Positions 14,295 through 17,428 of a stretch of DNA of 64,000 nt are shown here, piece after piece. Origin of the DNA: Sneathiella limimaris (lineage in GTDB: Bacteria; Pseudomonadota; Alphaproteobacteria; Sneathiellales; Sneathiellaceae); assembly GCF_012932565.1 (NCBI RefSeq), contig NZ_JABBYJ010000002.1, forward strand, positions 248,001 through 312,000, read 5' to 3'. A program made the position numbers and the translations under genes. The number at the start of each line of letters is the position of its first letter. Position 1 is the stretch's first letter. The notes under the pieces are model-generated. The model ran no database searches. It was not told where the DNA came from and worked only from the letters and a program-made list of their open reading frames with translations.

Positions 14295-15611
14295 CTACTC
14301 AGAAGGAACTGTCTCCCATTTTCCATCGCGGGACATATATTTGGAGCCATCCTCAGAATAAAAGCTTGTTGCTCCGGCGTCTTTGAGAACTTTCAGCATT
14401 ACTGGCAGCTCTTTGCCCTCTGCATCCAATTTGGCAATGACCTTGTCAGTTCCTAATTGGTCCAGCAGCTCAAACGGACCTTTCGCCCAACCAAATCCCC
14501 AGCGCATGGCACGATCAATATTGACTACATCGTCCGCGATTTCCGGGATGAGATCTGCTGCATAGAGGAGTGTTCCGCCCATGATGTCCCAAACAAGCTG
14601 TCCTTCCGCATCATCGGCGAAGAAAACAGTTTCAGGCGCCTGATGAATAGGTGAAAGCTCAACTGTCTCTTGTGGGCGCCAGCTTTCGCTTGTCAGATCA
14701 AAGATCTCTTTGGTCTTCGCTCCATCTTCAGCAATGTTAAGGCGATAAAAGCCTCCCTTAGCTTTCCGACCGAGCTGTCCCCGCTCCAGCATAGCCTGTT
14801 CCACGGGCGGAAAACTCGTATAGGCAAGCCCCACATCACCCTGAGGAAGATTTACTTTAAGGTTCTTTCCCACCAGATCCATGATGTCCAAACCAATAAG
14901 GTCGATCAGACCATAAAGGCCGGTTGGCGGCAATCCAACCGGCTTACTCAACAGCGCGTCCACCTTTTCCATTGGCATACCGGCTTCAAGGGCAGCCTTA
15001 GCTTTGTGCAAGCCTGACAGCATAAAGAAGCAGCCTATCCGATTGCCGATGAAGTTCACGGTGTCCTTTGCATAAACGACACCCTTGCCGAGTTTCTCAC
15101 CACAAAAACGCGCCAGCGCCTCAGTAACATCCGGAGTTGTCTTCTCCCCCGGGATCAGCTCCATCAAGCGCATGATTTTTACCGGGTTGAAAAAATGGGT
15201 TACAACAATATCCTTCTGCAACCGTTCTGGCATATCGGCCGCAATATCCTTGAGAGGAATACCTGAAGTATTGGTGGACACAACCGACCCATCCCGGCGA
15301 AGTGGCTCCAGCTTTGCAAACAATTCCCGTTTTGTGGCTAGATCTTCGATAATCGCTTCACAAATCCAGTCATAGTCAGCAATCCGTTCAAGGTCATCAT
15401 TGAAACTACCAAGCTTGATCCGTTTGGCGGATTCAGGGTTTTCAAAGGCTGGTGGACGAATATTGATCATCCGATCCAGAGAAGCTTCTGCAGCCTCCAG
15501 CGTGACATCCAAAAGCAGAACATCTGCTCCGGCATCTGCTGACGCCGCAGCAATTCCAAGCCCCATAGTACCGCCGCCAAGCACGGCAACTGATTTAACG
15601 TCTCTGGTCAT
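14295..15611 (-). CDS. 3-hydroxyacyl-CoA dehydrogenase, stand-alone
   Basis: This 438-residue protein oxidises 3-hydroxyacyl-CoA with NAD+ in fatty-acid beta-oxidation. Residues 8-40 hold the Rossmann motif [21 protein letters not shown] (split here as [10 protein letters not shown] and [11 protein letters not shown]), residues about 130-150 the catalytic [12 protein letters not shown], and [16 protein letters not shown] opens the first C-terminal helical domain. A second C-terminal domain follows ([24 protein letters not shown]-like, near residue 370). This is the dehydrogenase half of FadB/FadN proteins without the crotonase half. GAGGGAC precedes the ATG. No thiolase or hydratase gene lies alongside. 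Confidence 0.93.
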   Translation of the reverse strand: [438 protein letters not shown]

Positions 15612-15690: not shown

Positions 15691-15718
15691 AAAAAAGCGG
15701 CCCAGATTACTGGACCGC
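15691..15718 (-). terminator. intrinsic terminator of the Acb2/Tad1-like gene
   Basis: GCGGCCCAG (15697-15705) and CTGGACCGC (15710-15718) form a 9-bp stem with one G-U pair and a 4-base loop; on the minus strand six T follow (15691-15696). Confidence 0.85.
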
Positions 15719-15747: not shown

Positions 15748-16155
15748 TTAGACTTCAGCTTCCAATGTCAGTGCAAATTCCTTGATAACTTCTTCCGTGA
15801 TTTTGGAATTCGGGAATGCTTCTTGGACTTTCGCATGAATTTCCGATGCAGAGAGGCCGTTTCGATGATTTTCGATAATCAGATTCTGGATCCTTTCCCG
15901 TTGCGGCTTTGTTTTAGCAACCGCGATGCGAACCGCTGCATCTTTTGCTTCCAATAATTTCTGAAGCGCGACCATTTTCTGAGAATGATCTGGAAGCTGC
16001 TCGACCAGTGAATGGGCCAGTTTGTTGAACGGCTTACTAATGGCCTGCAGTCCTTCCGGTAGATGCTTATAGTCGAAGAAACACAACATATCTTCATACT
16101 GGGCACGAGCAAGTATCGCCTGACGTTTTGCAATTCCTTCAGTCTTCTGACTCAT
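15748..16155 (-). CDS. small helical protein with an Acb2/Tad1-like hairpin segment
   Basis: This 135-residue protein is helical and soluble. Residues about 25-80 follow the pattern I know from the helical hairpin of phage Acb2/Tad1-type proteins, which bind cyclic nucleotide messengers and block CBASS or Thoeris defence: CFFDYKHLPEGLQ, PFNKLAHSLVEQLPDHSQK and ALQKLLEAKDAAVRIAV, that is F-x-Y-x-x-L-P, a first helix ending LP, then a helix with KLLEAKDAAVR. The C-terminal 50 residues (ENHRNGLSASEIHAKVQEAF onward) look like a separate small helical, possibly DNA-binding, unit. There is no phage gene nearby. GGAG lies before the ATG, and an own operator and terminator isolate the gene. Family assignment is by eye and the cellular role is unknown. 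Confidence 0.55.
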   Translation of the reverse strand: MSQKTEGIAKRQAILARAQYEDMLCFFDYKHLPEGLQAISKPFNKLAHSLVEQLPDHSQKMVALQKLLEAKDAAVRIAVAKTKPQRERIQNLIIENHRNGLSASEIHAKVQEAFPNSKITEEVIKEFALTLEAEV

Positions 16156-16188: not shown

Positions 16189-16210
16189 GGAACGTTACTC
16201 GGAACGTTCC
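16189..16210. promoter_or_regulatory. tandem GGAACGTT operator before the Acb2/Tad1-like gene
   Basis: GGAACGTT occurs at 16189-16196 and again at 16201-16208, where it is extended to the perfect palindrome GGAACGTTCC (16201-16210). The pair lies 34-55 bases upstream of the start codon, in promoter distance. The half-sites GAAC are 8 bases apart, one more than the GAAC-N7-GAAC of alphaproteobacterial LexA, so I do not call a LexA box. Confidence 0.5.
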
Positions 16211-16357: not shown

Positions 16358-17428
16358 TTATTTCGCGACTGATTTCCCAGTTGAACCAAGCTCACGGAAA
16401 GCTTGCCCCAAACGCTCAACCATCTTCTCTTCACCCATCCGCAGCCATTTGCGTGGATCGTAAAGTTTCTTAAGCGGCTCTTCCGTCTCTGGGTGGATCT
16501 GATGCTCGAAGGCAACCATATTTTCCTTGGCGAAAGCACCAACACCTTCAGCGAATGCAAACTGTGTGTCTGTGTCGATATTCATCTTGAACACACCATA
16601 TTCAATAGCCTCAGTAATTTTTTGAGGCTCTGAGCCTGATCCACCATGGAATACGAGGTCCAAAGGCTTCTCAGATAGACTATGAGTTTTGGAAACCAGT
16701 TCCTGAGAGGCTTTCAGGATTTCAGGGCGCAACTTTACGTTACCAGGCTTGTAGACGCCGTGCACGTTACCAAAGGAAGCCGCAATGGAGAAATGTCCGA
16801 TTGGGCTCAGACGATCATAGGCTTCGAGAACGTCTTCTGGCTGAGTGTAGAGTTTACTGTTGTCCATGCTGTCAACATCGCTGCCGACACCATCTTCCTC
16901 ACCGCCTGTAATACCGAGCTCGATTTCAATGCTCATGTCCAACTCAACAGCCCGCTTCAGAAGCCGTGCAGACTCGTTCAAGTTATCATCGAGAGACTCT
17001 TCAGACAGATCCACCATGTGAGAGCTGAAAAGCGGAATACCATTTTTCTTTTTGTATTCAGCACCAGCATCAAACAGACGATCAACCCATGGGATCAGCT
17101 TTCTGTTGGCATGATCAGTGTGAAGGACTGCGCAGATACCGTAATGTTTGGCGAGCAAATGAACGTGCTGGGCAGCTGAAACCGCGCCATAAAGCATGGC
17201 ATCATCACCATTAGGCATTCCCTTGCCCGCATAGAAGGTTGCACCACCATTGGACAGCTGAATGATTACGTCTGAGCCATTTTTGGCTGCCGCTTCCATC
17301 ACAGCATTGATACTATCTGTACCCACGACATTTACGGCTGGCAACGCAAATCCGCCTGCCTTACAGTTACTGACCAGTTTCTGGTATTCTTCACCAAAAA
17401 CTACACCTGCTGGAAGTTCTAGGGACAC
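16358..17428 (-). CDS. fba: class II fructose-bisphosphate aldolase
   Basis: This 356-residue zinc enzyme cleaves fructose 1,6-bisphosphate to two triose phosphates and works in the reverse direction in gluconeogenesis. Class IIA features are present: FALPAVNVVGTDSINAVMEA at the N-terminus, the zinc-binding VLHTDHANRK (about residue 110), SSHMVDLSEESLDDN, ELGITGGEEDGV, FGNVHGVYKPG and the phosphate-binding VFHGGSGSE. Length equals that of E. coli FbaA. The start is a GTG at 17428 with AGAGGA 8 bases upstream. With pyruvate kinase 3.5 kb away it supplies glycolysis functions. Own terminator; gapR lies upstream. Confidence 0.96.
   Translation of the reverse strand: MSLELPAGVVFGEEYQKLVSNCKAGGFALPAVNVVGTDSINAVMEAAAKNGSDVIIQLSNGGATFYAGKGMPNGDDAMLYGAVSAAQHVHLLAKHYGICAVLHTDHANRKLIPWVDRLFDAGAEYKKKNGIPLFSSHMVDLSEESLDDNLNESARLLKRAVELDMSIEIELGITGGEEDGVGSDVDSMDNSKLYTQPEDVLEAYDRLSPIGHFSIAASFGNVHGVYKPGNVKLRPEILKASQELVSKTHSLSEKPLDLVFHGGSGSEPQKITEAIEYGVFKMNIDTDTQFAFAEGVGAFAKENMVAFEHQIHPETEEPLKKLYDPRKWLRMGEEKMVERLGQAFRELGSTGKSVAK

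Follow-up and report, generated by a model that had tools for sequence, protein, structure and literature searches.

A small gene among conserved host genes

The window, a stretch of 64,000 nucleotides of Sneathiella limimaris DNA, carries on its reverse strand a gene of 135 codons and a stop (positions 15748-16155), as defined from the list of open reading frames, its relatives and substitution data. A first, sequence-only reading had likened the product to Acb2/Tad1-type proteins on the strength of several short motifs, and these are indeed present in the 135-residue product. The gene had further been described as chromosomal and remote from any phage, which holds: the neighbours are host genes and their order is conserved in relatives. 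On the same strand lie the genes for a class II fructose-bisphosphate aldolase (fba, 16358-17428, GTG start; PF01116, E = 8.7e-78) and a 3-hydroxyacyl-CoA dehydrogenase (14295-15611; PF02737, E = 1.1e-43), and the window neighbours also include GapR and DUF1244.

The gene had been credited with its own operator and terminator. The putative operator is an inverted repeat with perfect 8-bp arms (GGAACGTT-N6-AACGTTCC, 16189-16210); it has a single match in the window, with zero mismatch, where 0.26 would be expected with up to three mismatches. The repeat does not occur upstream of the other five copies of the gene. Among the 283 loci examined, exact copies were confined to loci of G000, and upstream of the G008 copy a different 6-bp inverted repeat was read by eye. 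We therefore discarded the operator, as the repeat is specific to the own-genome locus among these loci and not conserved. As for the terminator, a hairpin followed by a T-run can be read directly 3' of the gene on the reverse strand (15691-15718), but it was not listed by the scan. The scan gave no sigma-70 promoter. A CBASS partner, proposed as a check, did not appear either: the best match to a SMODS nucleotidyltransferase in the genome of the window reached 12.3 bits, against a cut-off of 26.5.

An AlphaFold2 model of the protein (mean pLDDT 91.8) places helices at residues 3-27, 34-53, 58-98, 103-113 and 119-134, and three parts can be delimited, all on the reverse strand. The N-terminal extension (residues 1-20; 16096-16155) corresponds to the predicted helix 3-27. 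It is followed by a phage-type helical hairpin (residues 21-82; 15910-16095), defined by hmmscan matches to PHROG 1761/5120, by phage homologues and by the model, where it corresponds to helix 34-53 and the first part of helix 58-98. The end of that long helix, together with helices 103-113 and 119-134, makes up a C-terminal helical, HTH-like tail (residues 83-135; 15751-15909). A helical hairpin with an added C-terminal helical unit had been anticipated from the sequence; the model contains both, and adds a further helix on the N-terminal side. The same two-helix antiparallel hairpin is predicted for a phage member of the family that is only 61 residues long (AlphaFold2, pLDDT 96.0; helices 2-7, 14-33 and 38-59).

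The tail matched no Pfam or NCBIfam family over its curated cut-off. A likeness to Fur was weak (E = 0.0033, 17.5 bits, cut-off 220; E = 0.25 in a second search), and a Fur chain reached a Z of 3.9 by structure, which is not significant. Fur, DUF6465, DUF7232, C2_Mug190_3rd, RhlB and Cbp1 all fell under their Pfam or NCBIfam cut-offs and were set aside. The sole PADLOC match, to AbiTi (E = 0.019), was taken as chance.

A phage-type hairpin at two host loci

The window protein matches PHROG 1761 over residues 18-83 (hmmscan, E = 5.9e-25) and PHROG 5120 over residues 22-84 (E = 5.9e-15), two phage families without an assigned function; the copy from G005 also matches PHROG 1761 (E = 2.5e-24). 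The motif singled out in the sequence-only reading is thus not a chance resemblance: many phage proteins, which together make up a large family, have it as their core. By tblastn, the hairpin domain was located in 315 of 50,697 phage records and in 24 of 72,556 plasmid records; both counts contain some duplicates, and no match in either collection covered 80% of the host protein. Viral contigs contained at least 600 stretches matching a sequence pattern; 551 of the 600 listed encode a relative, and 80 such relatives were kept for comparison. Across 42 aligned rows, F27, H31, L32, A47, K66, L67, L68, E69, K71, D72, V75 and R76 are invariant. A Foldseek search of viral models also returned phage proteins in the top six places (28-48% identity over the aligned part, best E 1.1e-3), presumably members of the same family. 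The N-terminal helix and the HTH-like tail are absent from the phage forms examined.

Other apparent fusions of the hairpin were encountered. The protein of the Erwinia jumbo phage pEa_SNUABM_23 (L013:1219-1671) has a P-loop-like GAVGSGKS, read by eye, and PHROG 1761 covers both parts of this fusion. A 122-residue Ochrobactrum phage protein annotated as containing an Anti-TRAP domain (A0A6G6XYP8) aligned with the host model at a TM(q) of 0.44 and 46% identity, which suggests a further protein in which this hairpin is fused to another domain.

Near full-length matches to the window protein were found in six of the 24 genus genomes, its own included, the other five copies being 53-80% identical to it. 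A survey of 115 relatives gave a match in seven, namely these six and G103, a member of another family whose match is limited to residues 21-82. A family profile recovered the same seven genomes among 110 relatives and matched five of 386 genomes of the class; these sets overlap. When genome contigs were scanned with six peptides from the window protein, a single locus (L008) was retrieved. A weak family match (E = 3.5e-5) in the small genome G141 (L282, G141:C10:87661-87822) contains two in-frame TGA codons, and might reflect either reassignment of the code or decay of the copy.

All six host copies have the N-terminal region, the hairpin and the tail. The hairpins of the other five are 72-91% identical to that of the window copy, and the corresponding figures are 45-70% for residues 1-20 and 30-69% for residues 83-135; tails from the two context groups described below resemble each other little (22-32% identity across fba-side and fliI-side copies). 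In six pairs of host copies, the hairpin dN was 0.05-0.21, and dS was in every pair beyond the range of the method because synonymous sites are saturated. The protein sequence of the hairpin is thus strongly conserved against saturated synonymous sites, and purifying selection maintains the host gene, which occupies two distinct core loci. These values, and the presence of six intact, near full-length copies, argue against a functionless relic of a phage or mobile element, as does the fact that no recognized phage gene was seen among the neighbours of the host copies. A patchy distribution and two locations might be expected of such a remnant, which we nevertheless regard as extremely improbable. 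A prophage remnant was rejected, the neighbours seen being host genes.

In G000, G008, G014 and G018 the gene lies near fba, gapR and the 3-hydroxyacyl-CoA dehydrogenase gene. G006 has the same fba/gapR neighbourhood with the gene absent; its interval from the dehydrogenase gene to gapR (L252:3621-4683) holds instead thioesterase-like and TetR-like ORFs (named by eye), which adjoin the gene in G018 (L217). The G005 and G011 copies are flanked by fliI on one side and a FliJ-like gene on the other (L219:2581-4883 and L220:6119-8400), within a cluster of flagellar, chemotaxis and ctrA genes that is unlike the setting in the window species. The FliI protein of G005 scores over the FliI equivalog cut-off, the FliJ-like gene of G011 reaches 23.2 bits (under the cut-off of 50.45), and that of G005 gave no FliJ match. 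Around the G005 copy lie CtrA (over its cut-off) and CheR (over its Pfam cut-off); around the G011 copy lie CheB and FlhA, over their cut-offs, and FlhF-, CheY- and CheW-like proteins, below the NCBIfam cut-offs. With a patchy distribution and two contexts, the host genomes offer no constant partner gene.

A 59-leaf tree groups all six host copies in a single clade (support 1.0), which is consistent with one capture; whether capture happened once, and in which direction, hinges on this tree, which was built from segments of about 66 residues and rooted at the midpoint. Within the host clade, the G005 and G011 copies are sister to the four fba-side copies, weakly supported (0.776). That grouping, and the position next to fliI close to ctrA, che genes and, in G011, flhA and an FlhF-like gene, could speak for a flagellar or chemotaxis accessory factor that is functional between fliI and fliJ, the fba position being a relocation. 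We consider this quite unlikely: fliI was located in 22 genomes, and in 20 of them no copy lies between it and fliJ; four of the six copies are located elsewhere, and 18 of the 24 genus genomes have no match at all, six of these 18 being less than 90% complete.

A probable remote relationship to Acb2/Tad1

Direct membership in the Acb2/Tad1 family, as first proposed, was contradicted by the very profile on which the proposal had been staked: PF24729 (curated cut-off 27 bits) matched neither the window protein nor anything in its whole genome at E <= 10. Sub-threshold matches appeared in two of 15 family members (best E = 0.022), and hhalign found no match between the window family and 14 Acb2-type sequences, among them Acb2 of phage PaMx33, which itself scores 66.1 bits with PF24729. 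The link is provided by a third group, the FTYHPP-type phage proteins. All seven of those tested scored over the PF24729 cut-off (50.2-95.7 bits), and the FTYHPP profile was matched in hhalign by the window family (84.3%, E = 7.2e-6) as well as by its phage members alone (82.6%, E = 9.7e-6).

Two kinds of background were used to assess this match. The FTYHPP profile gave up to 15.1 bits with host proteins and up to 18.5 bits with phage members, and at most 10.1 bits with shuffled sequences (2,731 reported of 2,880). When it was run against 11,935 six-frame ORFs, the best other ORF reached 11.1 bits, a score that 69 of the 126 family ORFs exceeded and 57 did not; in the reverse direction, the family profile placed 46 of 86 FTYHPP ORFs above the best other ORF (9.6 bits), bearing in mind that the ORFs compared are not independent, many being close relatives. 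In the same set of ORFs, none of 19 Acb2-type ORFs beat the best other ORF with the family profile, nor did any of the 126 family ORFs with two Acb2-type profiles.

Cross-matches between PHROG families point the same way. PHROG 1454 is the PHROG of the FTYHPP type, and the window protein, L013, the G005 copy and L060 all matched it at 2.7e-4 to 8e-3. Among 142 genomes of the class searched with PHROG 1454 at E <= 0.001, the only match was to the window gene in its own genome (E = 8.7e-4), the G011 copy not being matched. With the FTYHPP profile, the window gene was also the one match in its whole genome at E <= 10 (E = 0.137, not significant alone). Conversely, the FTYHPP protein L131 matched PHROG 1761 (6.2e-3), and L127 did not. 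Five of the 14 members of the Acb2 set match PHROG 1454 (best 3.4e-9). One protein of that set, from the Rhodobacter phage RcapMu (L130:277-567), is annotated as similar to a cyclic-nucleotide binding domain.

Aligned by eye without gaps from the turn, the hairpins have in common a Pro at the turn, a Glu at +4, Ala at +8, Leu at +12, Glu at +14, Ala at +15 and +19, and Ala at -8; in the window protein itself, +4 is occupied by Gln. The position that would pair with Y11 of Acb2 (Y3 of FTYHPP) is Tyr in 34 of 42 family rows, and that which would pair with K26 of Acb2 (R18 of FTYHPP) is Ser in 41 of 42, the window protein included. We take these two to be ligand-contact residues, K26 being a nucleotide contact. 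The conserved pair of a Tyr and a basic residue of PF24729 is therefore not found in the window family.

Could two-helix hairpins with Ala, Leu and Glu patterns have come to look alike by convergence, with no relationship to Acb2/Tad1? The lack of a direct Pfam or hhalign match to Acb2 would fit this idea, and so would the profile matches in the PDB, all weak, where a designed helical protein (E 0.04) and phage Gp22 (E 0.049) stand above Acb2 homolog 43 (E 0.79). We find it unlikely, since the comparison of the family with FTYHPP beats shuffles and other ORFs in both directions, the PHROG families cross-match both ways, and the residues around the turn keep the same spacing without a gap. Structure searches were neutral. 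Foldseek and VIA-align against the PDB returned no significant match, mostly generic helical bundles, and no Acb2 or Tad1 chain among the matches listed, an absence that is not evidence against kinship. Among the viral models, Foldseek aligned two proteins named as Acb2/Tad1 hairpins (E about 5, target TM 0.62 and 0.72).

Of the resemblance originally proposed, then, a remote kinship stands, carried by the FTYHPP profile and the hairpin fold, and the direct PF24729/Acb2 match does not. The resemblance is real but remote, as FTYHPP intermediates link both families and the fold has the hairpin. From these profile comparisons, the window family is best placed as a distant sister of the Acb2/Tad1 hairpin and not as a direct member. 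The first intuition was right about the kind of protein and wrong about its membership.

A possible role and comparison with known systems

All together, we think it probable that the gene encodes an accessory domain that the host captured from phages, with a core, at about residues 21-82, distantly related as a sister to the Acb2/Tad1 hairpin; this judgement covers the identity of the protein and not its mechanism. The host may in effect have recruited a phage component for its own use. The hairpin domain would have entered the genus once, passing from phage to host. Among the titles and abstract openings searched (subscription papers and bioRxiv being mostly outside this coverage), no study of a chromosomal host version was found.

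As to mechanism, the hairpins may pack into an oligomer, in which the face bearing invariant residues such as H31, K66, E69, K71, D72 and R76 would capture a ligand. Tentatively, this ligand would be small and possibly nucleotide-like, which is our leading single guess, at well under even odds. A host sensor or sponge for nucleotide messengers had been suggested at the outset; the Ser in place of the conserved basic residue, and the lack of a SMODS match over the cut-off, bear on that idea. The tail could then turn ligand binding into an output, for instance a contact with DNA or protein, although we find this step doubtful. A still more specific version, in which a domesticated host receptor captures a nucleotide second messenger as an oligomer and signals through its HTH-like tail to DNA or to the flagellar export cluster, appears improbable. 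For that version, c-di-GMP is one candidate messenger because of the flagellar operon position in two species.

The hairpin might instead bind a protein, such as a phage virion, replication or host target, the host copy acting as a decoy, adaptor or regulator; we give this a substantial chance, if somewhat less than an even one. The invariant charged residues K66, E69, K71, D72 and R76 would suit a protein interface too, and the basic residue that presumably contacts the nucleotide in Acb2 is not kept. Phage copies moreover occur in both packaging/head and replication modules. Around 40 family members in viral contigs, a search of 77 neighbouring ORFs gave matches to 60 PHROG families at E <= 1e-5 (a single ORF may match several), and the 25 of these families that were listed comprise 14 of packaging or virion function, four of replication or recombination, one integrase, two homing endonucleases and four unknown. 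Among 14 annotated phage or plasmid records, the gene lies in or beside virion genes in five and among nucleotide-metabolism genes in one. However, some of the PF24729 proteins fetched for comparison, in several records, likewise lie beside virion genes, so that the phage context does not discriminate, and in the host genomes the gene keeps no constant partner.

With the captured phage hairpin as the favoured identity, several consequences follow. PHROG 1761/5120, found in 315 phage records, becomes tied at the profile level to the Acb2/Tad1 hairpin superfamily, which gives these families a testable function. The gene is also an example of an extended phage-type hairpin that resides in a host and is under selection. 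Should its product bind a nucleotide signal, a fold resembling that of phage counter-defence proteins would serve as a bacterial receptor.

Four known systems can be set beside the window protein. Acb2 homolog 43 (PDB 9ptq), a chain of 76 residues, matches the FTYHPP profile (E = 6.7e-7), and its match to the window family extends over the hairpin and is not significant; no paper was recognized as describing it among the titles and abstract openings searched. Acb2 of the Pseudomonas phage PaMx33 and T4 Vs.4 give no direct profile match to the window protein, yet its predicted protomer follows the plan described for Acb2, one N-terminal helix and two long antiparallel helices; Acb2 is described as a phage protein that forms a hexamer and binds cyclic oligonucleotides (PMC10419184, PMC12043709). 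The FTYHPP-type proteins (PHROG 1454) differ from the window family in that the latter has an N-terminal loop 4-5 residues shorter (alignment by eye), lacks the KLEEAVMWANAAIAR motif and a Pfam match, and carries Ser where Arg/Lys is conserved; the ungapped hairpin register, and the F-x-Y and H/P loop ahead of it, are the same in both. Finally, 13 of the 14 annotated phage or plasmid forms of PHROG 1761/5120 have 62-79 residues, whereas the host form has 135; the 14th, from the Erwinia jumbo phage, has 150 residues and an N-terminal P-loop-like part, and the extensions of the host form at either end are unlike those in the forms examined. Position 59 is Gln in all six host copies and Glu in 39 of the 42 alignment rows, and the pattern FxxxHLP...KLLEAKD..VR is common to PHROG 1761/5120 and the window protein.
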